A stretch of DNA of 36,352 nt from a virus, in the IMG/VR virus record IMGVR_UViG_3300038552_000061, positions 1 through 36,352 of that record, one strand, 5' to 3'. This document shows, one piece after another, positions 2,013 to 21,979 of this stretch; the stretch's first letter is position 1; each line of letters starts with the position of its first letter. The notes under the pieces are model-generated. The model was not told the DNA's origin, did not search any database, and saw only the letters and a list, made by a program, of their open reading frames with translations. A program made the translations under genes and the position numbers.

Positions 2013-2022
2013 GAGCGCAAAC

Positions 2023-2244: not shown

Positions 2245-2246
2245 CA

Positions 2247-2266: not shown

Positions 2267-2275
2267 TGGCTAGAC

Positions 2276-2909: not shown

Positions 2910-2910
2910 C

Positions 2911-3390: not shown

Positions 3391-3400
3391 GGTTTATCAA

Positions 3401-3613: not shown

Positions 3614-3625
3614 AGAGGTGGCGTG

Positions 3626-3983: not shown

Positions 3984-3986
3984 AGT

Positions 3987-4262
3987 ATGAGAGCAAATGC
4001 AATGAAAGCACTAGTTCTGCTTATGTCTATACTGTCAGGATGCGCGATGCTCTCGCAGAGCGCGCCTGTCGGAACCGGGCATTTCATTGCTTGTCACATG
4101 GACATGACGCAGTGTTTCAGGGAAGCGAATCGCTTGTGTCCTTATGGGTACGAAATCATTCACCTAGATGAAGTACGCGATCCATATGCTACTTCAATCC
4201 TGTATTATTCTGTGCAGGGTACGTCTGTTTATGGGAAGCTGCTGATCGACTGCGGAGAATAG
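3987..4262 (+). CDS. Small predicted lipoprotein (91 aa)
   Basis: The N-terminus carries a lipoprotein signal: short charged start, hydrophobic core (KALVLLMSILSG) and a lipobox-type LSGC, so Cys19 would be lipidated. ATG 4002 would give a more typical signal length. The mature part has Cys pairs (HFIACHMDMTQCFREANRLC) followed by PYGYEII; a 'Cys-x6-Cys-x6-Cys-Pro-x-Gly-Tyr' arrangement is familiar in small envelope lipoproteins of Gram-negative bacteria and their phages. Likely placed in the periplasm or outer membrane. Could be a superinfection-exclusion or spanin-type protein; no partner is obvious. Confidence 0.65.
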   Translation: MRANAMKALVLLMSILSGCAMLSQSAPVGTGHFIACHMDMTQCFREANRLCPYGYEIIHLDEVRDPYATSILYYSVQGTSVYGKLLIDCGE

Positions 4263-4271
4263 GGAAACATC

Positions 4272-4940
4272 ATGGGCAAATTACTACTCGTATTGCTTAT
4301 TTCGTTTACACTTGTTGGTTGCGACGGTATACCAGTTAAACTGGATATTAATTGCGGCTGTCCTTTTGAAGATGGCAAGATTGGAACTGCTAGAGGTTTA
4401 TCAGGAGAAGTTTATAAGGACAAAGACGGAAACCTTAGGTTTGATCTTCCAGATGACTCCGGTCCATGGTACAAGTACAGGCAAAACGAACATCCTAATG
4501 CACATCACAATCCAAAGATTGTCAAGAACGAAACGACTGGCGAGCGGCTGATGTGGGATGAGGCGGCTGGCCAGTGGGCTCCATACGCGACGAACGATGC
4601 CACTGGCGAGGCTATCTACTTTGACTATGCCAGGAATGTGTGGACTCCCGTCAACACAGGCGTATCCAATGGGCTCACCGACGTAGTCCAACCCATAAGT
4701 AGTAGGGTTTACACTGAAGGTGACATAACATACGAGGAGTTCGAATATGGAAATATCAGGCAGGATAAGCAAACTGGAATGTTCGAGTACCAGAAAAAAG
4801 ATGGAATGTGGTATAGAGCCAGGCTCCGTAAGGAAGTAATCGTCCCAGTAGTAGAGGTATTCGACGGGTCAGAATGGCGAGCTGTGCCGCAACACGCCGC
4901 TGAACTTGCGATCGAGAAGGCATTTCAAACACATGAATGA
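4272..4940 (+). CDS. Predicted lipoprotein with TGE/Trp repeats (222 aa)
   Basis: Signal peptide MGKLLLVLLISFTLVGC ends in a lipobox (LVGC, Cys17). The mature protein contains at least three related segments of about 20-25 residues: TTGERLMWDEAAGQWAPYAT, ATGEAIYFDYARNVWTPVN, and QTGMFEYQKKDGMWYRA, plus a last VFDGSEWRAVP. Each has Thr-Gly, an aromatic/acidic strand and a Trp followed by a Pro or Ala. The same motif begins the 662-aa ejection-type protein at 25501. This suggests a lipid-anchored envelope protein that may bind, or imitate, a virion component. Family not recognised. Confidence 0.7.
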   Translation: MGKLLLVLLISFTLVGCDGIPVKLDINCGCPFEDGKIGTARGLSGEVYKDKDGNLRFDLPDDSGPWYKYRQNEHPNAHHNPKIVKNETTGERLMWDEAAGQWAPYATNDATGEAIYFDYARNVWTPVNTGVSNGLTDVVQPISSRVYTEGDITYEEFEYGNIRQDKQTGMFEYQKKDGMWYRARLRKEVIVPVVEVFDGSEWRAVPQHAAELAIEKAFQTHE

Positions 4941-5109
4941 TCTAAAAGACGACATCATCGAGCTCATTCTAGTCCTGCTAGACGAATCACAGCTACTTAC
5001 AAATGAGAATTCTTACGTTGAAGACTACAAAGGGCTAGTCCACTACGCAGGAGACAGGGGAGACCGGTACTTCAAGATCGAGCTAATTGAAGTTGACCAG
5101 AAGGACTAG
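4933..5109 (+). CDS. Small acidic hypothetical protein (58 aa)
   Basis: ATG 4933 overlaps the lipoprotein gene by 8 nt. The product is acidic and helical at the N-terminus (DLKDDIIELILVLLDESQLL) and ends VDQKD. It lies directly before the terminase gene, separated by 2 nt. Small genes at this position are often small terminase subunits, but there is no HTH and the length is short, so I do not claim that. Confidence 0.55.
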   Translation: MNDLKDDIIELILVLLDESQLLTNENSYVEDYKGLVHYAGDRGDRYFKIELIEVDQKD

Positions 5110-5111
5110 CA

Positions 5112-6533
5112 GTGCCGCTCCTGGTTAGAGAATACACGCCTTCACCTACCATCCGTCGGTTCCATCTAGACGACACCTTCTATCGCGGTCTGATGGGACC
5201 GATTGGTAGCGGGAAGTCGGTTGCGTGTGTGGCGGAGCTCATGATCAGGGCGCAGGAACAAGAGCATTCTCCTGACGGTATCCGCCACACGCGCCATGTC
5301 ATCGTGCGCAACACCTACCGCGAGCTCACTGACACGACTATCAAGACGTTCCATTCCTGGATTCCGAGGGATGCAGGCGAATGGCTTGGGAAGGACATGA
5401 CATTCACCATTAATGGAGGTGATTTTCATACCGAGTTCATGTTCAGGGCGCTTGATAAGCCAGGAGATGTCAAGAAGCTCCTATCCATGGAGTTCACGGT
5501 TGGGTGGGTGAACGAAGCGAGAGAGATCCCGAAGTCGATCATCGACATGATGGGTGGACGTGCAGGGCGATATCCAGACAAAAGCTTTGGAGGCCCAACA
5601 TGGTACGGGATCATCATGGACACGAACCCACCGGACACAGATTCATGGTGGTACCGGATATTCGAACAACCTGACGAGTATGGGAATTATGCAGATGGAT
5701 GGCGACTGTTCCGTCAGCCTTCAGCGCGTGGACCTGATGCCGAGAATATCGAGAATTTGCCGCATGGCTATTATGATCGGCAGCTATTCGGAAAGACTGA
5801 AGAATGGATCTCGATCTATGTTGACGGGAATTACGGTTACACCATGGAGGGGAAGCCTATACATCCGAAGTTCAACCATAGTGTCCACGTCCTGGCGGGT
5901 GATCACGAGGTGTTGCCCAAGCGCCCGTTGCTCGTTGGCGCGGATTTTGGGCTGACCCCAGCTGCCGTTATCCTGCAATACCACCCGCTTGGGTATTGGG
6001 TGGTCCTAGACGAGATAGTGACGGAGGACATGGGAGCTGACGAGTTTGGGCCGGCAGTCATTGAGCACCTGCACCGGCACTACCCCGGGATGGAGTATTG
6101 TGGGTGGGGAGATCCGTCAGGGGACACGAGGAGCCAGGCGAACAGCCGGATGACGGTGTTCACCGAGCTCTACAAGACAGGCCTGATGCTCTCGCCTTGC
6201 CAAACGAATGACCTATTGGCGCGGATCTCGACGGTCAACCGGCTACTCGGAACGTTGGCCGCTGACGGAAAGCCGAGGCTGCGGTTTTCGAAGAAAGCGC
6301 AAATTTTGATCAAAGCAATGGCCGGGGGGTACCACTACCGGCGGGTCAATATCGCTGGTCTCGAGAAGTTCGAGGACAGGCCGAACAAGAATTCGTTCAG
6401 CCACGTGGCCGAAGCCCTCCAGTATGCCCTTGTTGGCGACGCTGGGTATACTGAGCAGAAGGAGGAGCGCACAATGCGAAGGCGATATGACGAGCGGCCT
6501 GCTGGCCGGCATCGGTCTTGGAAAACTGCATGA
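5112..6533 (+). CDS. terL: Terminase large subunit
   Basis: ATP-driven DNA packaging motor and headful/concatemer-cutting nuclease. The 473-aa product has a Walker A P-loop GPIGSGKS at residues 29-36, a Walker B region with catalytic Glu (TVGWVNEA, E135), and a C-terminal RNase H-fold nuclease: LVGADFGLTP gives the first Asp (D278) and WGDPSGD the second (D334), with a further conserved block (SFSHVAEALQYA) near the end. Length is typical for a terminase large subunit. GTG start at 5112, 2 nt after the previous stop; no earlier ATG in frame. It should dock on the portal encoded at 8775. Confidence 0.93.
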   Translation: MPLLVREYTPSPTIRRFHLDDTFYRGLMGPIGSGKSVACVAELMIRAQEQEHSPDGIRHTRHVIVRNTYRELTDTTIKTFHSWIPRDAGEWLGKDMTFTINGGDFHTEFMFRALDKPGDVKKLLSMEFTVGWVNEAREIPKSIIDMMGGRAGRYPDKSFGGPTWYGIIMDTNPPDTDSWWYRIFEQPDEYGNYADGWRLFRQPSARGPDAENIENLPHGYYDRQLFGKTEEWISIYVDGNYGYTMEGKPIHPKFNHSVHVLAGDHEVLPKRPLLVGADFGLTPAAVILQYHPLGYWVVLDEIVTEDMGADEFGPAVIEHLHRHYPGMEYCGWGDPSGDTRSQANSRMTVFTELYKTGLMLSPCQTNDLLARISTVNRLLGTLAADGKPRLRFSKKAQILIKAMAGGYHYRRVNIAGLEKFEDRPNKNSFSHVAEALQYALVGDAGYTEQKEERTMRRRYDERPAGRHRSWKTA

Positions 6534-6542
6534 GGGCACACG

Positions 6543-6821
6543 ATGGCGACGCTCTATGTTCCGGTCACGCTGGGGTCAATCCATGCTGATCGGCTGATGT
6601 CCGCTGTGAATACCCTGCGCAACGCCGAATGCAAATTGAGTTCGGTCAAGCAGGTGATGGACGCGATGATAGACGGTGCCGACTACTCGGAGCTGGAGAC
6701 CTACTTCGGGCTTCCGACCGGCGAAGGGTCGAGCGTGTGGACGAACGTCTCGAACGCGCTCACCGAGATCCAGAACGACGCAACCGTTCAGCAGCTGATG
6801 GACATGCTCGGCGCCTACTGA
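6543..6821 (+). CDS. Hypothetical protein between terminase and DUF2341-like gene (92 aa)
   Basis: GAGGG seven nt before ATG 6543. The 92-aa product is helical and slightly acidic (HADRLMSAVNTLRNAECKL, then DYSELETYFGLPTGEG). It ends 1 nt before the GTG of the next gene, so the two are probably co-translated. It may be a chaperone or partner for the following repeat protein. GC content rises sharply here. Confidence 0.7.
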   Translation: MATLYVPVTLGSIHADRLMSAVNTLRNAECKLSSVKQVMDAMIDGADYSELETYFGLPTGEGSSVWTNVSNALTEIQNDATVQQLMDMLGAY

Positions 6822-6822
6822 G

Positions 6823-8469
6823 GTGGCCTACTCCACCGGCTACTACGCAAAGATCACAATCGGGGGCGGCTTATCGGCCGCCGCCCTGTCGAACTACACC
6901 CTGTGGATCACGGCCGAGAACGTATCGGCCAACGTCCTGTCGAACATCCAGGCCAACGCAAGGGCGGACCTGAACGACGTTCGGTTCAGCACGGACACCG
7001 CCGGCGACAACCTCCTCAGCCTCTATAAGATCCTCGCCTCGCCTGCGAATGGCGACTTCGCGTTCCTCGTGGGACCGGTGAATTACACCGGCTCTACCGC
7101 CCTCGAGATTTACATGCATTGGGGCGACGGAACGCTCACCACGGACAGCTCCGCCTCGACGGTGTTCGACTCGTCCGTGGTATCGGCCTACACGCCTCGG
7201 GCCGTTGGCGCCGCCACGGACCTGGCTTCGACCGGGAACAACCTGGCTACGGCCGGCGGCACGATCGCAGTCAACCAGACGAGCGCGCCCCCGGGGAACA
7301 TCTACTCGTGGGACTTCAGCGCCAGCGCCAGCCAGTATATGAGCCTGGCCAACGCCACGACCAAAGGCATGGGCGTGGTTGGCACGGGCGCCACGATCCG
7401 GCTGCTGATGAAAAACCGCAGCACGGGCAACGCCGGGTTCGCGAATGTCGGCGACGGGAACGCCGCGACCTCGGGGCATTGGTTCGGTGCCGGCTACCTG
7501 ACATCGGCCGGGAACCATGATTACGTGGTCTCGCAGCGGGCGGGAACTGGCCAGCTGGCCCGCTCGGCCATCGCGTCGTCCACCCTGAACGCCTGGAACT
7601 ACTTCGCGGTCAAGTTCGATCCCACGACGAGCGCCGTGGGCGGCCTGGCGTGGAGCACCACGGCATCGAACGTCGCGAGCGGTTACGGGCAGACCTCGAC
7701 GCTCAGCAACATCTACGTGGGCACGGGGGACAACAACGCATCCCTCGTGATGGCTGGGCGCATTGCCTTCGCGGCCTTCGACGCGACGACGCGGTCGGAT
7801 GCGTGGCTTGCGGCAGACAACCGGCTGATGCTCGGCCAGGCCACATACGTGGCCTACGATGCTGACCCCACGGCGCACGGTGCGGGGGCGAGCGCCACCC
7901 CGACGACGGGCACGCTTGCGCTGATAGGTGGCGCGCCGACTGTGTTCCGGGCGGTGTCCGCCACCCCGACGACGGGCGCGCTGGCGATCGCTGGCGCGGC
8001 GCCTGAGGTGTTCCGAGCGGTGGCCGCCACCCCTGCATCGGGGTCGGTTGCGATCACCGGAAATGCGCCAACAGCGACCGCTGTGACCGGTGCGAGCGCC
8101 ACCCCGGGGGTCGGGTCGCTGGCGCTCATTGGCGCGGCTCCGCAGGTATTCAGGGCGGTGTCCACCACCCCGGCGGTTGGGTCGGTTGCGATCGTGGGGG
8201 CCGCGCCCGCGGTGTTCCGGGCGGTATCGGCCACCCCGGCGACTGGATCGGTTTCAGTGATCGGAGCGGCGCCGACGGTATTAACCGGCGCTGGCGTGGC
8301 AAAGACAGCGACACCGACCGTTGGCCATGTCTCGATTATTGGAGCCGTTCCAATGGTCGAGAAATATCTCATCACTGGCAGGCTTGTACGTTCGCGTCGC
8401 GTCCGTATTTGGGAAATAATCGAGCGTGACGACGAAGCGGTGATGCTTGCCTATCTATCAACGAGGTGA
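6823..8469 (+). CDS. DUF2341/LamG-like surface protein with Ala-Pro-Gly repeats (548 aa)
   Basis: Residues 1-130 begin AYSTGYYAKITIGGGLSAAA and run through a 'IYMHWGDGT' segment, the pattern of DUF2341 domains. Residues about 140-345 look like a concanavalin/LamG-type jelly roll. Residues 358-518 are seven repeats of 22-26 aa with consensus ATPxxGxhxhxGxAPxVFRAV. The last ~30 residues are basic and hydrophilic. This suggests a carbohydrate-binding virion surface or fibre protein. The gene is markedly GC-rich with C/G-ending codons, unlike the portal and capsid genes, which suggests acquisition. GTG start, 1 nt after the previous stop. The place between terminase and portal is unusual for a receptor-binding protein. 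Confidence 0.7.
   Translation: MAYSTGYYAKITIGGGLSAAALSNYTLWITAENVSANVLSNIQANARADLNDVRFSTDTAGDNLLSLYKILASPANGDFAFLVGPVNYTGSTALEIYMHWGDGTLTTDSSASTVFDSSVVSAYTPRAVGAATDLASTGNNLATAGGTIAVNQTSAPPGNIYSWDFSASASQYMSLANATTKGMGVVGTGATIRLLMKNRSTGNAGFANVGDGNAATSGHWFGAGYLTSAGNHDYVVSQRAGTGQLARSAIASSTLNAWNYFAVKFDPTTSAVGGLAWSTTASNVASGYGQTSTLSNIYVGTGDNNASLVMAGRIAFAAFDATTRSDAWLAADNRLMLGQATYVAYDADPTAHGAGASATPTTGTLALIGGAPTVFRAVSATPTTGALAIAGAAPEVFRAVAATPASGSVAITGNAPTATAVTGASATPGVGSLALIGAAPQVFRAVSTTPAVGSVAIVGAAPAVFRAVSATPATGSVSVIGAAPTVLTGAGVAKTATPTVGHVSIIGAVPMVEKYLITGRLVRSRRVRIWEIIERDDEAVMLAYLSTR
7894..8373 (+). repeat. Seven tandem coding repeats of 66-78 bp
   Basis: Each unit begins with Ala-Thr-Pro (Thr-Thr-Pro once) and contains a Gly-x-hydrophobic strand, then GxAP and usually VFRAV. 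Units are 22, 22, 24, 22, 22, 26 and about 22 residues. DNA similarity between units is high (for example the start of units 1 and 2), so recent expansion or recombination within the gene is plausible. Confidence 0.85.
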
Positions 8470-8472
8470 GGC

Positions 8473-8619
8473 ATGCCATTGACGAAGAAGGGGCGGAAGA
8501 TAAAATCCGCCATGAAAGCGCAATATGGCCAAGACAAGGGCGAGCGCGTGTTCTACGCCAGCAAGAATTCTGGCAAAATCACAGGCGTTGACAAGAAACG
8601 CAAGCGAGGCAAGAAATGA
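8473..8619 (+). CDS. Small basic virion-associated protein (48 aa)
   Basis: GAGGTGAGG precedes ATG 8473. The product (MPLTKKGRKIKSAMKAQYG, then GERVFYASKNSGKITGVD, then a poly-basic tail) matches a type of very short basic protein often found next to phage portal genes. The KKG...FYAS.N.GKITGV pattern is distinctive. Role unknown; DNA or head-shell association is likely given about 16 Lys/Arg in 48 residues. Confidence 0.8.
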   Translation: MPLTKKGRKIKSAMKAQYGQDKGERVFYASKNSGKITGVDKKRKRGKK

Positions 8620-8771
8620 AAGGCATTTTCGGAAGTTCGATGATCTCTGGTTCCGGCTCTGACGGGATGCAGATGAAGGGCAAGAAGCGCAAGATGAAGG
8701 ATCAGCCAAAGGTGAAGATTCGCAAGGGTGGAAAGCTGCCTGGGGGTGTGCGTCTAGGTCCGCAGAAGTAA
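8616..8771 (+). CDS. Small Lys/Gly-rich protein (51 aa)
   Basis: Starts in an ATGA overlap at 8616 and ends 3 nt before the portal gene. The sequence is Ser/Gly-rich at the start (GSSMISGSGSDGMQM) and strongly basic after that (KGKKRKMKDQPKVKIRKGGK). Probably a disordered DNA- or RNA-binding peptide, or a virion component expressed with the portal. Family not recognised. Confidence 0.65.
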   Translation: MKGIFGSSMISGSGSDGMQMKGKKRKMKDQPKVKIRKGGKLPGGVRLGPQK

Positions 8772-8774
8772 GTC

Positions 8775-11294
8775 ATGATCAAGAGCATAGACGGCAAGGT
8801 CGATATTGAGTCGATCCAACGCGCATTCAAGGCTTCTAGAGACAAGACTGCCGATTGGCGCAAAGAAGCCAAAAAGTGGTACGACTATGTAGCAGGCGAT
8901 CAGTACACCGAAGAGGAAATGGATCTAGCTGATCCAGAGCGCGCGTTTGTCGTATTCAATCGCACTGCCGTCTATGTTGAGACAGTAACCGGTATCGAGG
9001 CCTTGCAGCGGGACAAGGCGCAAATTGTATCGCGAGGTGTAGGACCGCAACGCAATCAGGTTGCGGATATATGGGATGCCGCATTAGGTTATGTCATAGA
9101 CGATAGCGCTGCTGAGGTTCACCAGTCCGAGGCGTTCCGAGACATGGTGATCTGCGGCATGGGGTGGACGGAATCGCACATGGACTTTGTCCGCAACCCC
9201 GATGGAGACCTGATAGCAGCGGCTCGCGTTGATCCGCTCCACATGTATTGGGACCCTATGTCAACGGAGCGCAATGCTAGCGATCGGAGGTGGAGCATTC
9301 GGATTGCGCCGTATGAGCGCTCCGAGATCGAGATGATGTGGCCTGATAAGGTCGATGAGATCTCGTGGAGCAATTTTTTCGCGCCTGTTCCGAATCCGGA
9401 TACTGATGTTGAGCGCGGGCCTAAGTTTTCATACACGGAAGAGGAGGATTGGAACCCTGACCCGTCTGATGTAATTTGGATATCGCATGTCAACTGGTAC
9501 GAGGTTGAGCCCTTCATGAGGGTGTCGATCGAAGGCAACAACGTTGACGTTCCTAGATCAGAATGGGATAGCTTCAAGGAGACGTTCCCGGAGCTGGCTG
9601 AGTACGGGAAGAAGGCAAAGAAACGAGTTTACAAGTATGCTTTCGTAGTTGGAAACACGGTACTTGAGGAGGGCGAATCCTTCGTTCAGGAGGGGTTCAG
9701 CTTTCAGGTGATGACTGGTCATTATCACCGGAGTGAAGGAACGTGGTTCGGTATCGTGAAGCCGTTCATCGATCCACAGGATTGGGTCAATAAGATGTAC
9801 GGCTCGATCATCGAGACCATGGCCACGAACAGCAAGGGCGGAGGTCTACTGTACGAGGAGGACGCTGTAGACGACATCAGGGACCTTGAGGAGTCATGGG
9901 CGCGCCCGGCCGGCCTGCACGCATTCCGCCCTGGTGCGATATCCGGCAGAAAAATCATGCCGAAGCCCGAGGCAACATACCCGGAAGGCCTCGACCGGCT
10001 GATGACCTTCGCATTCCAGATGTTCGGTGAGGTGTCCGGGGTAACCCCAGAGCTCATGGGTATGGTTTCCCATGATCAGCCCGGGGTTGTGGAGTACCAG
10101 CGCAAGCAGGCTAGCATCTCAACGTTGGCGTGGGCTTTCGATTCCAAGCGCTCGTATCTGAAGCACTGGGGGCGGATCGTCGCAGAGGCAATCCAGAAGC
10201 ACCTGGCCGACGGGCGCATCATCAGGGCGAGCGGTGGAGAGGAGGGTATGCAATACCTGCCGCTCCTGCGCGACGAGCTATCCCTTGAATACGAGGTGGT
10301 GGTGAACACCGCTCCGTCGGCTCCGAACGAGCGGGAGCGCGCCTTCGCGATCATGTCGTCGATGATGCCTGTCCTAATTCAGGCTGGCATCATGCCGCCA
10401 CCGGACGTACTCGACTACATGCCGCTACCGGCTAAGCTGATCGATTCGTGGAAGAAGGCGATATCCACCCCGAACCCGCAGCAGCAAGAATCGGCCCAGA
10501 TCGCCATGGAGGAGCGCAAGGCGAACATCGAGAAGATGCGGGCGGACGCGCTGGCTGCCCAGGCCAAGGCGAAGAAGGACGAAGCTGGAACCGAGCTGGA
10601 GATCGCCAAGATTCAGCGGGATAGCCAAGAGAATGCGGTTCGGGCGCAACTCGCGGTCGAGGAATCGAACCGGGCGCACCTGCTTGCGTTGCGGGACCGG
10701 GAGATCCAGGCGCTGAAGGTCCAAATGGAGCAAGAGAAGGCAGCCGCTCAAATGCGCAATGACCTGGCTTCGGTTGAGCAGAAGCGCATTGAGGGTCAGG
10801 CCAAGGTTCTATCGACGCTGGCTGACATTGAAGCAAAGCGGCAGAAGTCCGAGGCTGATAAGGAGGCCGCAGAGCAGAAAGAGCGCCTGGCATCATCCGA
10901 GCTTGCAAACAAGCAAATCGAGCTGGCAATCAAGGCGTTGGAGCTTCAGCAGAAGCTACTTGAGTCGAATGCCAATATCGGGAAGTCACTTGAGATAGTG
11001 ATCGGCAAAGTTGATGGAATGGAGGAGCGGCAGGACTCAATGGAAAACGATATGCGATCCATGTCCGGCGAAAGGGATCGCATGTACGGCATGATGGACA
11101 CGATGGCCAGATCGGTAGAAGAACAAAACGCCGAGATAGAACGCATGTACACTGATAAGATGAGCAAGGCAGAGGAAAAGCCAAGGCCTGCTATAATTGA
11201 AAGAGATGAAAACGGTTTCATAACCAAGATTGGCGACAAGACCGTGCTTCGAGACGAAGTTGGTCAGGTAATCGGTCTCACAAGCGAGGACTAA
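8775..11294 (+). CDS. P22-type portal protein with coiled-coil C-terminus (839 aa)
   Basis: Dodecameric DNA channel at the capsid vertex. Residues about 1-560 follow the P22-type portal pattern: helical N-terminus with WRKEAKKWYDYVAGDQ, a wing region (DPLHMYWDPMST), a core with YHRSEGTWFGIVKPFIDPQD, and the stem/clip region. Residues about 566-735 are a continuous charged coiled coil (many E-K-A heptads), followed by a Met-rich segment and an end module ITKIGDKTVLRDEVGQVIGL. P22's own portal has a long helical barrel at its C-terminus, so the coiled coil is probably the equivalent barrel. Larger than the P22 protein (725 aa). Interacts with terminase and neck proteins. Confidence 0.9.
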   Translation: MIKSIDGKVDIESIQRAFKASRDKTADWRKEAKKWYDYVAGDQYTEEEMDLADPERAFVVFNRTAVYVETVTGIEALQRDKAQIVSRGVGPQRNQVADIWDAALGYVIDDSAAEVHQSEAFRDMVICGMGWTESHMDFVRNPDGDLIAAARVDPLHMYWDPMSTERNASDRRWSIRIAPYERSEIEMMWPDKVDEISWSNFFAPVPNPDTDVERGPKFSYTEEEDWNPDPSDVIWISHVNWYEVEPFMRVSIEGNNVDVPRSEWDSFKETFPELAEYGKKAKKRVYKYAFVVGNTVLEEGESFVQEGFSFQVMTGHYHRSEGTWFGIVKPFIDPQDWVNKMYGSIIETMATNSKGGGLLYEEDAVDDIRDLEESWARPAGLHAFRPGAISGRKIMPKPEATYPEGLDRLMTFAFQMFGEVSGVTPELMGMVSHDQPGVVEYQRKQASISTLAWAFDSKRSYLKHWGRIVAEAIQKHLADGRIIRASGGEEGMQYLPLLRDELSLEYEVVVNTAPSAPNERERAFAIMSSMMPVLIQAGIMPPPDVLDYMPLPAKLIDSWKKAISTPNPQQQESAQIAMEERKANIEKMRADALAAQAKAKKDEAGTELEIAKIQRDSQENAVRAQLAVEESNRAHLLALRDREIQALKVQMEQEKAAAQMRNDLASVEQKRIEGQAKVLSTLADIEAKRQKSEADKEAAEQKERLASSELANKQIELAIKALELQQKLLESNANIGKSLEIVIGKVDGMEERQDSMENDMRSMSGERDRMYGMMDTMARSVEEQNAEIERMYTDKMSKAEEKPRPAIIERDENGFITKIGDKTVLRDEVGQVIGLTSED

Positions 11295-12286: not shown

Positions 12287-13390
12287 ATGGCAACCACAGA
12301 CTATCCCGTCAACCACCCTAATGCCCGCAAGCACTGGGCAAACGAAATTCACAAAGAGGCCTTGAAGCGCACGTATGCGCTCAAGTTCATGTCGGCTGGT
12401 CCTGACAATATTATTCAGGTACGCAACGAGACCAGCAAGTCAGGGCAGATGGGCGGAAAGGGTGACCTTATCCGCTATCCAATCAAGCAGCAACTGCAAG
12501 GCGATGGTATTCAGGGTGATGCTACCTTGGAGACCAACGAAGAAGCTCTCGTCACTTATTATGACGAGATGTACATCAACCAGCTTCGACATGCAACGCG
12601 GTCAGCTGGTCAAATGTCCGAGCAGCGCGTTCCGTATGATGTTCGCGAAGAGGGAATGGACTCTCTCGCAGACTGGTACGCGACTCGATATGACGTTTCA
12701 TTCTTCAACCAGATCTGCAGTCATTACCAGCAAACAGACACAAAGTACACTGGAAACAACGCAGCAATTACTGCATCAGGAACTGGCAACAGAATCTTTT
12801 ATGGGCACTCGACAACCGCATCATTGACTGCGTCTGCTACTGGCTTTGGCCTTACCGCAATCGATCGTTGCGTTGAAATCGCGCAGACCCGCCAGTATCC
12901 CATTCGTCCCATCAAGATGAATGGTGGCGAGTACTACGTGATGTTTATCAGGCCTGAGACATTCACGGCCCTTAAGGGAGCTGTGTCTGCTTCTGCGGTA
13001 ACTTGGTACGATGTGCAGCGCTCTCTACTCGAGTCTGGTCTAAACGCTCGTGATAACCCGCTCTTGACCGGCGCAGCTGGAATGTACGCAAACACGATTA
13101 TTCATGTTGCGCCTAACATTCCAAGAGGGGTTACGACTGAAATCGCCTCTGCAGGATTGTCGGTTGTCCCAGCTGTGTTTTGTGGTGCACAGGCCGTTAC
13201 CTGTAGTTTCGGTGTTGGTTATGGGCAGGGATCCCCGTTCACGTGGGCAGAGGAGCTATTTGACTATGGTAACCAGCTCGGAATCGCGTGTGGTAGTATC
13301 TTCGGGATGAAGAAAAATCAGTTCAATGGCCAGGATCATAGCGTGATTCAGGTGTTGCACACTATCTCTACCACGCAGAATATGGCATAA
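12287..13390 (+). CDS. Major capsid protein, N4-gp56 type (367 aa)
   Basis: The order after portal and scaffold, and the sequence, identify the major capsid protein. Characteristic features of the N4-gp56 (DUF4043) HK97-fold group are the early KHWANEIHKEALKR, the GKGDLIRYPIKQQLQGDGIQ strand/loop, 'ATLETNEEALVTYYDEMYIN', and the spine-helix region around QRVPYDVREEGMDSLADWYA. Length is in the usual 350-420 aa range. It probably assembles on the scaffold encoded upstream. Ribosome-binding site is poor (TTGGA), so the structured leader may matter for high expression. Confidence 0.88.
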   Translation: MATTDYPVNHPNARKHWANEIHKEALKRTYALKFMSAGPDNIIQVRNETSKSGQMGGKGDLIRYPIKQQLQGDGIQGDATLETNEEALVTYYDEMYINQLRHATRSAGQMSEQRVPYDVREEGMDSLADWYATRYDVSFFNQICSHYQQTDTKYTGNNAAITASGTGNRIFYGHSTTASLTASATGFGLTAIDRCVEIAQTRQYPIRPIKMNGGEYYVMFIRPETFTALKGAVSASAVTWYDVQRSLLESGLNARDNPLLTGAAGMYANTIIHVAPNIPRGVTTEIASAGLSVVPAVFCGAQAVTCSFGVGYGQGSPFTWAEELFDYGNQLGIACGSIFGMKKNQFNGQDHSVIQVLHTISTTQNMA

Positions 13391-13394: not shown

Positions 13395-13820
13395 ATGGCA
13401 ACTACTACGTTTACTCCGGCTGCTGCGAGTTATATCCCGAAAGCCGACCACAGGGGCGTTACCGTTGTTACGTTCTTCAAGACGGCTACTGCGTCCGCTG
13501 TATGGGGAAAGGTCCTTATAGCCAAGATTCCGCATGGTGCGACTGTGCTCGATGGCATTTTGTACAACTCGCAGTCGCTTCTGGACTTGCGAGTCGGCAT
13601 CGGTACTACATCGGCCTCGAACAAGGCAATGTTCATCGGTACGAGTTCCGCGTTGACTGTTACGCGGTTCTACGTCGGTAGCACTGTTCCAGCGATTGGG
13701 CCGTACAAGGTGTCGGTGAGCGATGCCGCAGCGAATCGCTGGCAGATGGTAACTATGGCGGCATCGGCTAGCCTTTCAGGCATTTTTTCTGGCTGGATCA
13801 GCTATACCATGAATCCATGA
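13395..13820 (+). CDS. Possible head decoration protein (141 aa)
   Basis: Directly downstream of the capsid gene (4-nt gap), beta-strand-rich, Ala/Ser/Thr-rich (MATTTFTPAAASYIPKADHR and so on), with no Cys. Position, size and composition fit a decoration or minor head protein, but no family motif is recognised. Followed within 27 nt by the strong terminator at 13847-13879. Confidence 0.6.
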   Translation: MATTTFTPAAASYIPKADHRGVTVVTFFKTATASAVWGKVLIAKIPHGATVLDGILYNSQSLLDLRVGIGTTSASNKAMFIGTSSALTVTRFYVGSTVPAIGPYKVSVSDAAANRWQMVTMAASASLSGIFSGWISYTMNP

Positions 13821-13846: not shown

Positions 13847-13879
13847 CAGCGCTGGCGGAATTTGCCGGCGCTGTTTTTT
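13847..13879 (+). terminator. Rho-independent terminator after head genes
   Basis: CAGCGCTGGC pairs with GCCGGCGCTG (10 bp with one T-G wobble) around a 7-nt loop, and TTTTTT follows directly. It would close the high-level head transcript before the sugar/radical-SAM cassette. Because tail genes lie downstream, transcription beyond it needs read-through, antitermination or a new promoter. Confidence 0.88.
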
Positions 13880-13920
13880 CGAAATATACTTACATTGTTG
13901 AAAACAAAGAGGGGCCATAA

Positions 13921-15489
13921 ATGGCTGTTATAAAAATATCGCCTGAAGACATGCAAAAACTTGTCTACGAAGCTTTGGAAGGACCGTTCGATCACCAGAA
14001 GCTTATGTATGCAGGCGAAGTTCTGACACAGGTTTGCATACAAAATCCTGATGAATTCTGGCCAAACTTCTGGCTTGCTGGAGTAAAAAGCAAGATAGGA
14101 GATGTTATTAGTGCGACAGCGATTCTTTATAGATGCCTTCAAATGAAGGATGCTCGTATATTTGATGTCTGGAACAATCTCGGAACGATATGGCGCAGAG
14201 TCAATGTAACTGAAAAATCGCGCGAGGCATACGACAACGCATATAGCATAGATGATAATGATCCTGATGTCATCAATAACCTTGGGACGCTATACGTTAA
14301 CGAGGGAAGCCCTGAAGAAGGCGAAGCCATCATGCGCAAGGGTCTGGAGATTAATCCAGGCCATCCACATCTGAATTGGAACCTCTCGCTGCTACTGCTA
14401 GAACAGCAGAGATGGGGTGAGGGATTCGACCGGTACGTGTGGGGGATGTGCACGAAGGATCGGCCGAATAAGCCCTACGTGGATAGCAGGGGTAGAACGG
14501 TGCCCTGGTGGCATGGCCAGAGCGTTGTGACGCTTGTCGTCTACGGAGAGCAAGGCGTTGGAGACGAAATCATGTTCGCCTCCATGGTTCCTGATCTTGC
14601 GCTGTTTTGCGACCGGCTGATCCTCGACATGCACCCGAGGCTCGTAAACCTGTTCAAGCGAAGCTTCGCCCACCTTCCGAACGTCACGGTCTACGGGAAC
14701 CGGAAGGATTACGATACGGTTCCAGATTGGGCAGGCTCAATGGAAATTGACGCCAAATGCGCGCTCGGGAATTGCGCTCGGTTTTTGCGCTTCAATGAAT
14801 CCATGTTCGAGCCGTTCAAGGGCGGGTATCTCAGGCCGAATCCAGATCTGAGGTTCGAGGCCATGAGGTTGATCAACCACACGGGGCCTGTAGTTGGGGT
14901 GTCGTGGATTGGAGGAACAACCTCCACCAGAAAGGACCTGCGCAGCATTCCACTGAAAGCCCTTGAGCCCATTCTGGAAGCTATTCCTAACGCTGCAATC
15001 GTCAGCCTACAATACACCGACGAACACGAAGAGATCGAAGCCTACAACGCAACTCACGATCGCAAGATCAAAAGCTTTCCTGATTGGACTGTTGCATCTT
15101 ACCAGCGCTCTTATACGGTAGCGCGTGATGGCCAAAAGGTAGCAGACTTTAGCGACAAAGAGGAGGCGAAGGCGTTCATTGGAAGCTACCTTCATGGGAA
15201 TGGAGCAATCACTGAGAACCGAGGCCCTGCGTTTGACCTTGACAGAAAGGCTGCAATGATGGCCGCATGCGACATTATCGTAACCGTAAACCAAACAAAT
15301 GTATGGATGGGTGGAGCGCTTGGTCTCCCCACTATGGTGCTAAGCCCAAAGAAAGCTGCATGGAGATACGGGCTTACCCGCACTGATACGGCATGGTTCT
15401 CTAGCATTCATCAGTTCAGAAACGACGGAGAGAGCTGGGAACAAGCAATACGAGAGCTTGCCAATTCAATAGAAGGATATTTGAAGTGA
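13921..15489 (+). CDS. TPR-containing glycosyltransferase (522 aa)
   Basis: Residues about 25-170 hold TPR-like repeats (VWNNLGTIWRRVNVTEKSRE; NNLGTLYVNEGSPEEGEA; LNWNLSLLLLEQQRWGEGF). Residues about 190-520 look like a GT-B glycosyltransferase of the OGT/GT9-like group, with VVYGEQGVGDEIMFASM (N-terminal Rossmann), VGVSWIGG, and ALGLPTMVLSPKKAAWRYG near the C-terminus. It would transfer a sugar to a protein or glycan acceptor. An extra segment of about 45 residues with YTVARDGQKVADFSDKEEA interrupts the GT domain. AGAGGGG before ATG 13921. Its stop overlaps the next gene (GTGA). First gene of a four-gene cassette placed after a terminator. Confidence 0.8.
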   Translation: MAVIKISPEDMQKLVYEALEGPFDHQKLMYAGEVLTQVCIQNPDEFWPNFWLAGVKSKIGDVISATAILYRCLQMKDARIFDVWNNLGTIWRRVNVTEKSREAYDNAYSIDDNDPDVINNLGTLYVNEGSPEEGEAIMRKGLEINPGHPHLNWNLSLLLLEQQRWGEGFDRYVWGMCTKDRPNKPYVDSRGRTVPWWHGQSVVTLVVYGEQGVGDEIMFASMVPDLALFCDRLILDMHPRLVNLFKRSFAHLPNVTVYGNRKDYDTVPDWAGSMEIDAKCALGNCARFLRFNESMFEPFKGGYLRPNPDLRFEAMRLINHTGPVVGVSWIGGTTSTRKDLRSIPLKALEPILEAIPNAAIVSLQYTDEHEEIEAYNATHDRKIKSFPDWTVASYQRSYTVARDGQKVADFSDKEEAKAFIGSYLHGNGAITENRGPAFDLDRKAAMMAACDIIVTVNQTNVWMGGALGLPTMVLSPKKAAWRYGLTRTDTAWFSSIHQFRNDGESWEQAIRELANSIEGYLK

Positions 15490-15911
15490 ATGAAAAAGAA
15501 AGTAACATAATTGGCGAACTAAATGTTATTGCAAAAGTATCTTCTTGTGGGAGGCGCCAAATAGCTGCTGCAATATGCGACTCAAACATGGATGTTATAG
15601 CCGTTGGCGTAAATGGGGTTCCAAGTGTATGTGAGTGCACATGCGAAGGTAGAAACGTTCCGGCTGGAGCTGGAGCAAAAATGAAAGTGAGCTGCGATGG
15701 AATCCATGCAGAAATTGCAGCTTTGATTAAGTGCGGATCTCGTATTGAGGATGCAAGATATGTGATATCAACTAAGGCTCCATGTACTAATTGCGCTGCA
15801 ATACTTATACATGGAACCAAAATTCATACTGCAATATTCGAGATTGACAGTATTGAGACAGCGAATTCAGAACTTTGGAAAAGATACGGCGGAAAGTGGG
15901 TGAAAATATGA
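15486..15911 (+). CDS. Deoxycytidylate/cytidine deaminase-family protein (141 aa)
   Basis: Zinc-dependent deaminase fold: the HAE motif (H74-A75-E76) supplies a Zn ligand and the proton shuttle, and PCTNC (residues 99-103) gives the other two Zn ligands. A Cys-rich insert (VCECTCEGRN, SCDG) before HAE is typical of the dCMP-deaminase branch, which often binds a second structural Zn. dCMP to dUMP is the likely reaction, but no thymidylate synthase is present, so the substrate may differ. GTG start in a GTGA overlap with the glycosyltransferase gene. Soluble. Confidence 0.8.
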   Translation: MNEKESNIIGELNVIAKVSSCGRRQIAAAICDSNMDVIAVGVNGVPSVCECTCEGRNVPAGAGAKMKVSCDGIHAEIAALIKCGSRIEDARYVISTKAPCTNCAAILIHGTKIHTAIFEIDSIETANSELWKRYGGKWVKI

Positions 15912-16426
15912 CACGTAAAGACCTGATTTCGAATGGATATCTCGAGCTGCAAAAGCGGCTTCATGATGAAAGACCTGATTATGGCGCAAATGGCCATCGT
16001 ATGTACAAAGAGATTGCGCGCCTAGCTGAGATTACTGGACTGCAAGACATCCTCGACTATGGATGCGGAAAGCAGACTCTCGCGAATGCTCTCCCTCAGT
16101 ACAACGTGAAGTGCTACGATCCGGTCATACCGTATCTTGCGGAATGCCCTGACTCTGCCGAGTTCGTGGTGTGCTCTGATGTTATGGAGCATATAGAGGA
16201 GGACAAGGTTGATGCGGTTCTCGACCACATCAAGGCAATTGGGCCTAAGCTCGTGTTTTTCCATGTGGCCACAGTACCAGCTCAAAAGATAATGGCTGAT
16301 GGTCGAAATGCTCATATCTGCCTGCATGAGTCAGATTGGTGGCTAGACAAGTTGCGTTCTCGCTGGCGCATGATCGAATTTTACGATAAGAAGCATTCGT
16401 TTAATTTCGTTGGGACTAAGAAATGA
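15908..16426 (+). CDS. SAM-dependent methyltransferase, class I (172 aa)
   Basis: Rossmann-type methyltransferase: motif I ILDYGCGKQTLA (D50-G54) for SAM binding, then VVCSDVMEHIEED (motif post-II/IV). The short length (172 aa) and start RKDLISNGYLELQKRLHDE resemble small phage methyltransferases of unknown acceptor. ATG 15908 lies in an ATGA overlap with the deaminase gene. Its stop overlaps the radical SAM gene by 4 nt. The acceptor could be a sugar, nucleotide or small molecule; no DNA-methyltransferase DPPY/NPPY motif is seen. Confidence 0.82.
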   Translation: MTRKDLISNGYLELQKRLHDERPDYGANGHRMYKEIARLAEITGLQDILDYGCGKQTLANALPQYNVKCYDPVIPYLAECPDSAEFVVCSDVMEHIEEDKVDAVLDHIKAIGPKLVFFHVATVPAQKIMADGRNAHICLHESDWWLDKLRSRWRMIEFYDKKHSFNFVGTKK

Positions 16427-17418
16427 GCATTACCGAAAGAATAGACGAAATAACGAACGTTCCTATCGATAGCTACAAGACAATACTGCCTGCGCCAAAG
16501 TCAGTAAAGATCGAGCTAACATCAAGTTGCAATCTTCGGTGCAAGTTTTGCAGCTTGCGCATGAGGGATAAGCAGCCGCATGGTCGAGATGCACAAATTG
16601 ATTTTGACTTTTTCAAGTATATTGTCCTGCAAATGGTGAATGAAGGGGTAAAAGAGATTGGCTTGTTCTATCTAGGGGAAAGCTTCTCGGCGTTTAAGCT
16701 TCTGCACAAGGCCGTAAGATACTGCAAAAATATTGGCGTTGAGTATGTGTTTCTAACGTCCAACGGAACGCTTGCTTTTCAAGATAGAGTCGCTTTGCTT
16801 ATGGAGGCTGGCCTTGATAGCCTCAAGTGGAGTGTTAATTGTGCGGACCCTAAGCAGTACCATGAAGTTACTGGTGTAAGTCCAGAGCTCTTTTGGAAAC
16901 AGTTAAAAAACATACATGATGCATGGGACATCCGTGAAGAAGTTGGATACAGCACGAAGCTGTATGCTTCGAGTATTCGATACGATGGAGAGCAGCACGA
17001 AAGGATGCAGGATACCATCGGCAGGTACGTGGCACCCTTCGTTGACGAGCATTATTGGCTGCCGCTTTACGGGATGGCGATGACAGCAAAGCGCATGCAG
17101 GAGGATACTGGGTGGACTCCTAACCTCGGGAATATCGGGCGCTACGATGAATCTATGGGAACCGGGAACCGCCATGATCAGCCTGTATGCTGGTCAGCTT
17201 TCACGGAAGGGCACGTGCGTTCCGATGGGCACATGAGCGCGTGCTGCTTTGGTGCGACCGACCGGTTTGACGTGGGCGACCTTGCCGAGCAGAGCTTCAT
17301 GGAGGCGTGGAATAGCCCAGCATACCAGGCCATCAGGGAAGCACAGCTCCGGTATGCGGTAGGGGAAAAAGATGCGCTGAAGGGGACGATGTGCGAAGTA
17401 TGCGTGGCATACGAATGA
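16423..17418 (+). CDS. Radical SAM/SPASM-type enzyme (331 aa)
   Basis: The CxxxCxxC motif (C36, C40, C43: CNLRCKFC) binds the radical SAM [4Fe-4S] cluster. The TIM-barrel continues with GLFYLGESFSA (glycine-rich motif) and TSNGTLAF. The C-terminal region CWSAFTEGHVRSDGHMSACCF and later TMCEVCVAY carry the cysteines for SPASM/twitch auxiliary clusters. SPASM enzymes modify peptides or sugars by radical chemistry. ATGA-coupled with the methyltransferase gene; last gene of the cassette. Substrate unknown. Confidence 0.87.
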   Translation: MSITERIDEITNVPIDSYKTILPAPKSVKIELTSSCNLRCKFCSLRMRDKQPHGRDAQIDFDFFKYIVLQMVNEGVKEIGLFYLGESFSAFKLLHKAVRYCKNIGVEYVFLTSNGTLAFQDRVALLMEAGLDSLKWSVNCADPKQYHEVTGVSPELFWKQLKNIHDAWDIREEVGYSTKLYASSIRYDGEQHERMQDTIGRYVAPFVDEHYWLPLYGMAMTAKRMQEDTGWTPNLGNIGRYDESMGTGNRHDQPVCWSAFTEGHVRSDGHMSACCFGATDRFDVGDLAEQSFMEAWNSPAYQAIREAQLRYAVGEKDALKGTMCEVCVAYE

Positions 17419-17459: not shown

Positions 17460-17906
17460 ATGGCTGAGTCGAATTGGTACTTCTTCCACAAAGGCCTTCG
17501 CGCCATGTTTGACGGCACGGGTCTAAATTTCAGCGTGTCGGGAGCATGGACGCTTCGGCTCGTAACCGACGCCTGGACACCGGATCTCTCGACTTCCACC
17601 ACCGGATCGGTTACCTGGAACGACGCAGCCGGAGAGGGCAACACTGCGGCGCGTGCAGTTCTCAATATGCGCATCACGGCTTCGGCATCTTCGAACTGGG
17701 GATTCACCCACGACGCCGTGATTTTTACCGCAACCCCCGGAAGCAATTTTTCTGCCCAGTATGCGGTTCTGCAATACACCGGGGTAGCGCAACCTATTGC
17801 CGTATTCCGGATCTCTACAGGCGCAATGGTCGCATCTCAGATCACCATCAACCCTCCTGCTGCTGTTAAGATATTCGATATATCAGCCTCTTATACGATC
17901 GGGTAA
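17460..17906 (+). CDS. Putative structural protein (148 aa)
   Basis: GAGGG seven nt before ATG 17460. Beta-strand-rich, no Cys, Ser/Thr/Ala-rich (NFSVSGAWTLRLVTDAWTPD; FTATPGSNFSAQYAVL). Position after the cassette and directly before the neck adaptor suggests a minor head or tail protein. No family recognised. Confidence 0.6.
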   Translation: MAESNWYFFHKGLRAMFDGTGLNFSVSGAWTLRLVTDAWTPDLSTSTTGSVTWNDAAGEGNTAARAVLNMRITASASSNWGFTHDAVIFTATPGSNFSAQYAVLQYTGVAQPIAVFRISTGAMVASQITINPPAAVKIFDISASYTIG

Positions 17907-17907: not shown

Positions 17908-18534
17908 ATGGCAACCTACGATGACATAATCGCGCGCATCGCAGATGACGTGATGCGCTCAGATATCAATTCTCAGATCGGAGCAGGAATCAATAGGGCA
18001 ATTCGCCATTACCAAGGTGAGCGAACTTGGTTCAATGAGTCGAGCTCGACGTTCTCAACAGTTACAGCGCAGGAGTCTTATTCAACAGCTGATGGCCTTC
18101 CGTCAGATATCCTAAAGCTCGATCTAGTAAAGATCGTCTATAATTCTGGTGAATTCCCTCTATTTCGTCAGCAGTTCAGCACGCTTGAATCCTGGCAATT
18201 CGATCGTACGGCAGGAGTCGGAACGCCAACTGATTATGCAGAGTATGCAGGGTCGGTATATCTGTACCCGATTCCAGATCAGGCGTATGAAGTAAAGCTA
18301 TGGTACCAAAAGGAATATTCAGCGCTTGCTTCCGGTGGTAGCAACGACTGGACGAATGAGCCAGAAGCATTGAATCTTATTGAAGCGAGAACAGGGTGGT
18401 GGGTCGCTACTCGAATACTAAGGGACGTAGAGCTAGGGTCAATATACAAGTCCGAGGAAATGCAGGCATTGAGCGCCATGAAGAAGCGATCACACAAGTT
18501 CACATCAAGTGGAAAGGTAAAGAGGTTTTTCTAG
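17908..18534 (+). CDS. Head-to-tail adaptor/neck protein (208 aa)
   Basis: The start MATYDDIIARIADDVMRSDI plus GAGINRAIRHYQGERTWFNE is characteristic of phage neck adaptors of the P22 gp4/tail-accessory type, which extend the portal channel. A conserved beta region with LYPIPDQAYEVKLWYQKEY follows, then a helical C-terminus and basic tail. About 200 aa is usual. 1 nt after the preceding stop; 1 nt before the next start. Confidence 0.72.
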   Translation: MATYDDIIARIADDVMRSDINSQIGAGINRAIRHYQGERTWFNESSSTFSTVTAQESYSTADGLPSDILKLDLVKIVYNSGEFPLFRQQFSTLESWQFDRTAGVGTPTDYAEYAGSVYLYPIPDQAYEVKLWYQKEYSALASGGSNDWTNEPEALNLIEARTGWWVATRILRDVELGSIYKSEEMQALSAMKKRSHKFTSSGKVKRFF

Positions 18535-18535: not shown

Positions 18536-19279
18536 ATGCAACGCATAAGAAACATCACGAATAAGCCTCTAATCTGCGTTGGTTATGATAGCAATGAACC
18601 TCTTGCTTATAACGTATGCGTCAAGTCAATGATGCATTACGCCTCAAAAAGCCCAGATATAATGCCGATGGACATTGAGTTATTGCGTCGTTCATCGCTG
18701 TATCGTAGGAGCGCGCTAACGGTTGGAGCGTACCAGGTTGATACTCAAGACGAACGTCCATTCTCGACTGAGTTTGCATTCTCTCGATTTCTGTCCCCTA
18801 TCATAGGTCAGGTATTAGATCGAGACTATGTAATATTTGTTGACTCTGACTTCATGTTCCGAAGCGATATATATTCGCTCATGGATTGCGTAGACGAAGG
18901 AGCTTCAGTCAGCGTCGTCAAACACGACTATCGGTCGTACAACAAGACAAAAATGCGAGGACATGTTCCACAGCAAGCCTATAACCGAAAGTTATGGTCA
19001 GCGCTGATGGTGTTTAACTGCAGCCATCCTGACGTTCGCAATCTGACCACATATCAGGCAAATTATCAGCCAGGGAGCTGGCTTCATGGGTTCGAATGGA
19101 CATCTGACGGATCTATCGGTGCATTACCACATGCCTGGCATTGGGTTCCTGGACATAGCCACGCTGACATAATCCCGCACGCTGTTCACTACACCATGGG
19201 CACTCCTGATGTACCCGGGCATGAAGAAGAACCATATTCTGGTGAATGGAAAAGCTTCGCTGAGCAGTTTACATCATGA
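18536..19279 (+). CDS. GT-A glycosyltransferase (GT8-like, 247 aa)
   Basis: Nucleotide-sugar-dependent transferase: the metal-binding DxD is DSD at residues 103-105 (YVIFVDSDFMF), with SVVKHDY and a C-terminal HYTMGTPDVPGH. Architecture resembles small GT8-type enzymes. Located one base after the neck adaptor and ATGA-coupled to the fibre-like gene (19276), so its acceptor could be that fibre or another virion protein. It may also use products of the 13921-17418 cassette. The precise sugar is unknown. Confidence 0.78.
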   Translation: MQRIRNITNKPLICVGYDSNEPLAYNVCVKSMMHYASKSPDIMPMDIELLRRSSLYRRSALTVGAYQVDTQDERPFSTEFAFSRFLSPIIGQVLDRDYVIFVDSDFMFRSDIYSLMDCVDEGASVSVVKHDYRSYNKTKMRGHVPQQAYNRKLWSALMVFNCSHPDVRNLTTYQANYQPGSWLHGFEWTSDGSIGALPHAWHWVPGHSHADIIPHAVHYTMGTPDVPGHEEEPYSGEWKSFAEQFTS

Positions 19280-20178: not shown

Positions 20179-20447
20179 CGCGTGACGAGCTCATTTCAAA
20201 AATGGTGACCAATAGATACAAGGTGGAGGTAATAACCTGGGAAGAATTCAGGGCGTACATTGTAAATTCTGATCAGTCATTCAAAGACAACATAGTATCG
20301 ATTATTAACTCGGAGGATCGTGCGTCCATTGGTGCATTGCTTGTCAATATATCAAACGCCATCAGGATGGCTAAGGCGCAGGCGTATGTTGACGCAATTG
20401 CAGCAGACAACACATTCACGACAACCGAGCTTTTGGAGCTTCTTTAA
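20175..20447 (+). CDS. Hypothetical tail-region protein (90 aa)
   Basis: ATGA overlap with the fibre gene. Helical, charged (TRDELISKMVTNRYKVEVIT; RASIGALLVNISNAIRMAKA), ending TTTELLELL. Might be a small fibre chaperone, given its position directly after the fibre gene, but this is inference. Its TAA overlaps the next ATG by one base. Confidence 0.65.
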   Translation: MTRDELISKMVTNRYKVEVITWEEFRAYIVNSDQSFKDNIVSIINSEDRASIGALLVNISNAIRMAKAQAYVDAIAADNTFTTTELLELL

Positions 20448-21979
20448 TGGCTGAGATACGATTCGCAGAGTGGACTCCTGACCTGGCACCGCTGGGTTCG
20501 CCTGGAATCGTTAATGCTCGAAACGTGTTGCCATCTATTGATGGATATATTCCTTTTCATGATCACTCATCATTTACGTCAACACTATCTTCAACAGCGA
20601 CTCAATCATGGGTGCTCGGAGCAATATCAGTAAAGTCTAATTCACTGAACAGCTATACCTACGCCGGAAACGGGTCCGATTTATTCGTTCTGTCATCCAA
20701 TAATTGGATTAATTACACTAGGACAGCAACGTCTAGCTCAAGCAGCACGAACATAGCAGTACAGTACGATACTGGTGCAGAAAACTATTGGGAATTTGCT
20801 AAGTTCAATGACATTGTAATAGCTACGAACTTCGATAATTATCCGCAGTATATTACCGCTGGAGAGTCAACTGTTTTTAAAAACCTGATTGACTCGCTGC
20901 GGTTCAAGACAGTTGATACAATAAAAGGCTTTGTAGTTGCAGGCGATATATACGATGTGTCTGCCGGAGTGCGTCGAACAAACCGCATCCAGTGGTGTGG
21001 ATACGAGGCGCCAATAGGTAGCGATAACTGGGTTCCGAGTATTGTTAATCAGTCTGATTATCAGGATCTTAATTCATCTGGTGGTGCTGTAAAAAAGATC
21101 GTAGGTGGTGAATATGGGTTGGTGGTGTGTGAGCAGTCTGTCTTTCGGCTTACATATATAGGCGCCCCGCTTGTGTTCCAGGTTGACGAAACGCTACCTG
21201 GGATCGGAACAGAATTCCCGAGATCAGTGTGCAAGTATGGCGACACCGTGTTCATGCTATCGCGCGCTGGGTTTATAGCAATCAGCGGTGGTGCAGCTCT
21301 TGAGTACATAGGTTCGAACAAGGTCGATAACACGATAATAAAGAATATTGATACTGAATATTTTTATAACGTTATTGGTTCAGTGGATGTATCGACAGGG
21401 CGTGTCTACTGGATATATCCATCGAATTCAGCAACTAGTGGCATGCCTGATACAGTAGTCGTTTTCGACACCAAATCAGGTCGCTGGTCTTATGCAAAGC
21501 AAAATCTATGGCTTATATTCAGCGGGATATCGTCTGCGGTATCACTTGATGAAATGACCGCAGGTAGCTCGTATTCAAACCTAGACACTCTCGGTGTTTC
21601 TCTAGACAGCACGTTCTGGAAAGGAAATTCCAGATACATAGGCGGCTTCAATGAAGCTCACGAGCTCGGAGACTTTACCGGCAGCGCACTGCCAGCCATA
21701 ATTGAAACAGGAGAGATCAAACCATTCGGTGATAGCCGGGCGCTCATAACATCTGTGCGTCCGCTTGTTGACGGAGCAACAAACGTTGCTGTTGCGATAG
21801 GCTATCGAGATAGGCAGCAAGATGCATACGTTGAAGGGCCGATAATCAATGTAGATGCATTCGGTAATTGTCAACAGCGCATAAATGCAAGATATGTCCG
21901 CGTTATCCTGAAGACTACTGGTTCATTCGACAAGATCATCGGGGTTGACCCGATGGCTACGAAGGCTGGAAAGCGATAA
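20447..21979 (+). CDS. Tail/neck protein of P22 gp10-like type (510 aa)
   Basis: Probably the tail hub/stabilisation protein that seals the DNA channel below the adaptor. The opening RFAEWTPDLAPLGSPGIVNA followed by a beta-propeller-like repeat pattern (many 'W-x-x-I' and 'G-x-x-Y' strands; VGVSL-type turns; KTVDTIKGFVVAGDIYDVSA) is typical of gp10-like proteins of short-tailed phages. No catalytic motif. Overlaps the neighbours by one base on each side. Confidence 0.7.
   Translation: MAEIRFAEWTPDLAPLGSPGIVNARNVLPSIDGYIPFHDHSSFTSTLSSTATQSWVLGAISVKSNSLNSYTYAGNGSDLFVLSSNNWINYTRTATSSSSSTNIAVQYDTGAENYWEFAKFNDIVIATNFDNYPQYITAGESTVFKNLIDSLRFKTVDTIKGFVVAGDIYDVSAGVRRTNRIQWCGYEAPIGSDNWVPSIVNQSDYQDLNSSGGAVKKIVGGEYGLVVCEQSVFRLTYIGAPLVFQVDETLPGIGTEFPRSVCKYGDTVFMLSRAGFIAISGGAALEYIGSNKVDNTIIKNIDTEYFYNVIGSVDVSTGRVYWIYPSNSATSGMPDTVVVFDTKSGRWSYAKQNLWLIFSGISSAVSLDEMTAGSSYSNLDTLGVSLDSTFWKGNSRYIGGFNEAHELGDFTGSALPAIIETGEIKPFGDSRALITSVRPLVDGATNVAVAIGYRDRQQDAYVEGPIINVDAFGNCQQRINARYVRVILKTTGSFDKIIGVDPMATKAGKR

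Follow-up and report, generated by a model that had tools for sequence, protein, structure and literature searches.

Why does a phage carry a set of enzyme genes in the middle of its head gene block? This question arises from the window studied here, which spans all 36,352 bases of an IMG/VR virus record that may be incomplete. Its head module is P22-like and comprises a portal (PF16510; 8775-11294, upstream of the enzyme set), a major capsid protein of the Phage_capsid_3 type (12287-13390, + strand; PF13252, 9.3e-56; phrog_334, 2.3e-68), an SU10-type head-tail adaptor (17908-18534, + strand; PF24175, 2e-16) and a stabilisation-type protein (20447-21979). As described in the initial annotation, four enzyme genes lie on the + strand between the capsid and the neck genes (13921-17418), and successive genes share exactly 4 nt (GTGA, ATGA and ATGA). 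Overlaps of this kind are ordinary translational coupling. The order of the cassette genes, unlike the overlaps themselves, is beyond chance, as it is kept across many divergent contigs. At the DNA level, the region had no match among annotated phages. We propose that the genes probably constitute a virion-glycosylation island whose sugar is most likely attached to the capsid cement protein, a reading based on sequence comparison, structure models and analogy to known systems.

The initial annotation had missed two genes, the cement gene before the cassette and a GT8-type glycosyltransferase gene past the adaptor (18536-19279, + strand; slot-GT8 profile, 1.2e-65; phrog_28018). In this transferase, a DxD motif (D103, D105) and H218 are invariant across 15 relatives. 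With it, the window has five enzymes of the set and not four. The product of the cement gene (13395-13820, + strand) has no family match itself. A profile from 71 relatives of this protein matches the cement proteins of cyanophage Pam1 (5e-7) and Ralstonia phage GP4 (2e-6), and for its AlphaFold model (pLDDT 77) the best Foldseek matches are the cement proteins of GP4, Pam1 and KHP30. Profile, fold and the position of the gene adjoining that of the major capsid protein all identify it as an Ig-like capsid cement (decoration) protein. In GP4, 540 copies of the cement protein are located on the outer surface of the capsid (PMC9698820).

The junction between the cement gene and the enzyme genes is occupied by an intrinsic terminator (13847-13879, + strand), for which the earlier description as a strong one was confirmed: a 12-pair stem (13847-13873) is followed by TTTTTT (-21.4 kcal/mol, z = -3.1). 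A terminator-like structure is present at the cement/TPR-transferase junction in 36 of 60 relatives; between the capsid and cement genes the number is 3 of 73, and shuffled controls gave 0 of 60. We infer that the terminator separates enzymes in low demand from highly expressed virion proteins.

The first enzyme (13921-15489, + strand, 522 aa) appears to be a TPR-glycosyltransferase. Pfam recognises its TPR repeats (3.6e-6; approximately residues 1-180), and neither Pfam nor NCBIfam gives a name to the transferase domain, which is visible in the AlphaFold model (mean pLDDT 94.7) as a GT-B domain of the GT9 fold (residues 198-522). The best structural matches of this domain are GT9 enzymes (Z 19.0 over 259 residues for 3tov, 18.2 for WaaF and 16.6 for TibC), whereas the sequence profile of the domain against GT9 stays below significance (WaaF, E = 0.28). 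When the whole chain is used in Foldseek, SPINDLY (SPY) and OGT of family GT41 become the top matches, and the fusion of TPR repeats to a GT-B domain is indeed as in GT41; at the domain level, however, GT9 structures rank first. The aspartate of the N-terminal GD motif (D215) is invariant in 82 sequences of the TPR-transferase family and a histidine in the C-terminal half, the putative donor-site residue, is kept in 96% of the family; both would be counterparts of WaaC residues. The window has Trp462 instead of this histidine, which is also absent from MW202512 and a few other relatives. With this replacement, the transferase of the window may use another donor or may have a weakened activity.

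The resemblance of the transferase domain to the LPS heptosyltransferases WaaC and WaaF might also be taken as a sign that LPS or another host glycan is altered and superinfection excluded, which is the kind of host-surface modification performed by the gtr genes of P22. We consider this improbable, since a TPR domain is typical of protein substrates, in most relatives the genes reside among the late virion genes, flanked by cement and adaptor, and no flippase or membrane transferase was found among the slot genes scanned. The plasmid-borne relatives of the TPR-transferase likewise suggest protein acceptors: they are located beside a YadA-like adhesin or beside a giant Ig-like protein, the latter in the company of further glycosyltransferase genes and one for an FkbM methyltransferase.

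Two known protein glycosylation systems are comparable in part. The TPR domain of FlmG from Caulobacter crescentus binds flagellin and its GT-B half transfers the sugar (PMC7591256). Like the enzyme of the window, FlmG consists of an N-terminal TPR and a C-terminal GT-B part, and its target is a protein of a self-assembling surface structure. However, FlmG is encoded by a bacterial motility gene and acts on flagellin with pseudaminic acid. The likeness drawn here is one of architecture. A crude motif search found no flagellin near bacterial TPR-transferases. TibC and the bacterial autotransporter heptosyltransferases share the GT9 fold with the window's enzyme, and TibC glycosylates a protein. 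In this case the acceptor is an autotransporter adhesin, and the enzyme of the window does not have the C-terminal histidine present in most members of its own family. To our knowledge, TibC and the autotransporter heptosyltransferases possess no TPR domain.

The relatives of the locus indicate what the remaining genes might be needed for. Scans of IMG/VR yielded 31 relatives of the radical SAM enzyme, at least 385 of the transferase and at least 570 of the methyltransferase, of which 80 each were kept for the latter two. From these, 92 distinct loci with both a TPR-transferase and an adaptor were obtained; since similarity to genes of the window itself was the criterion for retrieving them, counts from them describe the kin of the window and not phages overall. 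In the window and most of the 92 loci, the order is major capsid protein, cement, TPR-transferase, slot and adaptor, with the adaptor as the right border of the slot, and glycosyltransferase genes are thus placed among virion genes. Among the loci with enough upstream sequence, a capsid gene lies within 3 kb upstream in 84 of 107 and a cement gene in 83 of 107.

Most slots hold both of two families: together they contain 79 ORFs of the methyltransferase family, represented in the window by a 172 aa member of the phage DGRNAH family (15908-16426, + strand; Methyltransf_23, 5.7e-7; phrog_24759, 3.9e-26), and 74 ORFs of the GT8 type. The initial annotation had regarded the gene combination as lying outside any standard module. 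This view is not supported, as the TPR-transferase, the methyltransferase and the GT8-type enzyme are the usual slot content in this group. The radical SAM gene is present in 15 of the 92 slots and the deaminase gene in only three loci. Because slots of relatives also hold genes for GT29 (sialyltransferase type), GT-B, FkbM, GDP-mannose 4,6-dehydratase and DegT aminotransferase proteins, the slot is best described as a putative glycosylation island. The earlier proposal of one coupled pathway, in which a sugar is made and then attached to a virion protein, gains support from these relatives, as they keep the set beside the cement gene and add glycan genes.

It could be argued that the slot is merely a hotspot of unrelated late cargo and that the four genes do not belong to one pathway, as HNH endonucleases and a trypsin-like gene were also found in some slots and the deaminase is rare. 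That glycan enzymes are the most recurrent slot families, and that the radical SAM gene accompanies GT8 genes outside the phage group of the window too, makes this very improbable.

In the radical SAM enzyme (16423-17418, + strand, 331 aa; Radical_SAM, 3.9e-13; SPASM, 9.9e-11), the CX3CX2C motif (C36, C40, C43) is invariant in 30 sequences, and so are the auxiliary cysteines C256, C274, C324 and C327, with C275 nearly invariant. This pattern is twitch-like and fits one cluster; the full pattern of a SPASM peptide maturase, with seven auxiliary cysteines and two clusters, was not found in the window's radical SAM family. The best solved relative is BtrN (1.2e-14), a 2-deoxy-scyllo-inosamine dehydrogenase acting on a cyclitol, with which four auxiliary cysteines are alike although the relation is remote; DesII, a deoxysugar enzyme, was also matched. 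A viperin-like match (1.8e-7) was set aside, since it covered the core domain only. Of 34 loci with the radical SAM gene, 25 have a GT8 gene at a distance of at most 3 kb, and in 18 the distance is at most 150 bp. The association extends to phages outside the group of the window, in which FkbM, MptE-like, UDP-galactopyranose mutase and aminotransferase genes are among the neighbours. The BtrN-type single-cluster pattern and the glycan-gene neighbours suggest that sugar chemistry suits this enzyme better than peptide maturation. As the gene changes seven times on the capsid tree among the sampled loci, it is an accessory that is often acquired or lost.

The deaminase (15486-15911, + strand, 141 aa, GTG start; dCMP_cyt_deam_1, PF00383, 1.7e-8) is similar to dCMP deaminases. 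The zinc motifs HAE (H74, A75, E76) and PCxxC (P99, C100, C103) are invariant in its family, and the family profile matches dCMP deaminase structures with 6e-14 (5.8e-14 for 4p9c). It occurs in only three slots, those of the window, of L104 (L338 is the same contig) and of L160, and each of them possesses a radical SAM gene. With radical SAM genes in 16 of 93 slots, this would happen by chance with p of about 0.004 (about 0.025 excluding the window), which gives a thin hint that the deaminase is linked to the radical SAM step. Neither type of thymidylate synthase (PF00303, PF02511) was detected in the record, and the earlier statement that the deaminase has no such partner holds for this record, which may be incomplete. 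The enzyme may feed the thymidylate synthase of the host or may serve the sugar pathway.

Both enzymes bear on two further ideas of the initial annotation, a radical-modified, RiPP-like peptide and a sugar linked to DNA. Several RiPP maturases do match the radical SAM protein weakly, and the presence of a dCMP-deaminase-like gene would be compatible with DNA modification. With invariant cysteines for only one auxiliary cluster, BtrN as the best solved relative and glycan enzymes as neighbours, the peptide is disfavoured, and the lack of any thymidylate-synthase-like gene in the record disfavours the DNA-linked sugar, so that we regard a pathway of either kind as highly improbable.

If the island modifies the virion, it has to be asked which protein is the acceptor. 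For an independent sample, the capsid gene served as the only query, and 58 distinct loci extended far enough downstream of it. The TPR-transferase is present in 38 of them, i.e. about two thirds, and 37 of these 38 possess the cement type of the window. Among the 20 loci without the transferase, 19 do not have this cement type and one does. In most of these 20, the small cement-like gene is of another kind, and the adaptor follows soon after a short slot in which glycan enzymes are few or absent. The serine content is 9.9% in the cement type of the window and 5.4% in the other type. Island and cement type thus appear to change together. A Fisher test of cement type against transferase (p = 4e-13) ignores relatedness and is not relied on. 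Mapped onto the capsid tree, the island is gained or lost only about four times, with the cement following and two of the changes being forced, so that the link to the cement type depends on few independent events. A mirror-tree comparison of distance matrices did not single out a coevolution of cement and TPR-transferase. Taken together, the sample provides moderate, not strong, evidence for the cement protein as the acceptor.

An acceptor elsewhere in the virion, such as the capsid protein, the adaptor or a tail or fibre protein, has some points in its favour. The slot abuts the neck genes and the GT8 gene of the window lies past the adaptor. The 148 aa product of the gene at 17460-17906 (+ strand), which had no family match and no relative in the other fetched loci, is rich in serine and threonine and is perhaps a second virion protein. 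Furthermore, mycobacteriophages do glycosylate capsid and tail proteins: phage-encoded transferases modify one or the other in Che8, Corndog and Myrna (Freeman et al. 2023, as summarised in PMC12363180). It is, however, the cement gene that is kept beside the TPR-transferase gene, and relatives that possess the transferase differ in cement type from those that lack it, so that we consider another virion acceptor rather unlikely.

Reading acceptor, donor, linkage and order of steps from gene order, conservation, fold classes and terminator, we infer the following route for glycosylation of the virion. The TPR half of the first enzyme would bind a newly synthesised virion protein, for which the cement protein is the most likely candidate, and the GT-B half would add the first sugar to serine or threonine. 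The GT8-type enzyme could then lengthen the glycan and the methyltransferase cap or O-methylate it, while the radical SAM enzyme might oxidise or rearrange a sugar or nucleotide-sugar. The deaminase would be either an enzyme of the nucleotide pool or an accessory of the radical SAM step. The terminator after the cement gene would hold the enzymes at catalytic instead of structural levels.

Direct evidence of phage virion glycosylation comes from a few mycobacteriophages (PMC12363180, PMC11652166), in which it shields the particles from antibodies. No BLAST-level relative was found among mycobacteriophages, and in contrast to their systems the island of the window is variable and comprises several enzymes, one of them a radical SAM enzyme. 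Virion glycosylation as such is already known. In the literature searched, whose coverage leaves out most subscription journals, we found no paper describing the module, and the TPR-GT9 enzyme, the radical SAM member, the link to the cement protein and the variability are undescribed there. Reyranella sp. CPCC 100927 is a named strain that bears a prophage of this kind.

What emerges is an island of several enzymes that is widely shared, varies in content and is linked to a single surface protein, a candidate acceptor that is testable. It would account for many of the methyltransferase, GT8 and radical SAM genes that occur as orphans in the capsid regions of environmental phages and are currently annotated as unknown or as metabolic cargo. 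Tentatively, and with more doubt than conviction, one could go further and assume that a large uncultured P22-like group possesses an exchangeable, phage-encoded glycan coat that includes radical SAM sugar chemistry, and that cement and glycan genes are swapped together. If this were true, the capsid surface of these phages would change by cassette exchange, much like bacterial serotypes.

The terminator that lies between the capsid cement gene (13395-13820) and the enzyme genes (window positions 13847-13879) is kept at the same junction across relatives. The first enzyme gene behind it encodes the TPR-transferase (13921-15489, plus strand), which carries a Trp at residue 462, a position that is occupied by His in 96% of the family. 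This family-typical His is also replaced in MW202512 and in the relative loci L090, L144, L167 and L184.

In the loci L010-L013, the reading frame of the radical SAM family (16423-17418 in the window) comprises 605 amino acids with approximately 288 additional residues at the N-terminus, and it is possibly a fusion. A single phage contig, L038, possesses three genes of this family (961-8963). In another phage contig, L002, a small open reading frame (4783-4947; MPTLRCQKDGKPGYKYGESGTC...) directly follows the radical SAM gene, and there are no glycosyltransferases near that gene.

Elsewhere in the window, the region 28279-30313 contains a YqaJ exonuclease and RecT recombinase pair and, behind it at 29864-30313, an endonuclease VII / Lar-like gene.

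Two bacterial contigs, one from the named strain Reyranella sp. CPCC 100927 (L217) and one from a Thiotrichaceae MAG (L195), carry the capsid-cement-TPR transferase module in prophage-like form. Bacterial TPR-transferases of the window's family (L190-L268) frequently form tandem arrays with two to six members, and in some cases the methyltransferase family represented in the window by 15908-16426 is present as well.
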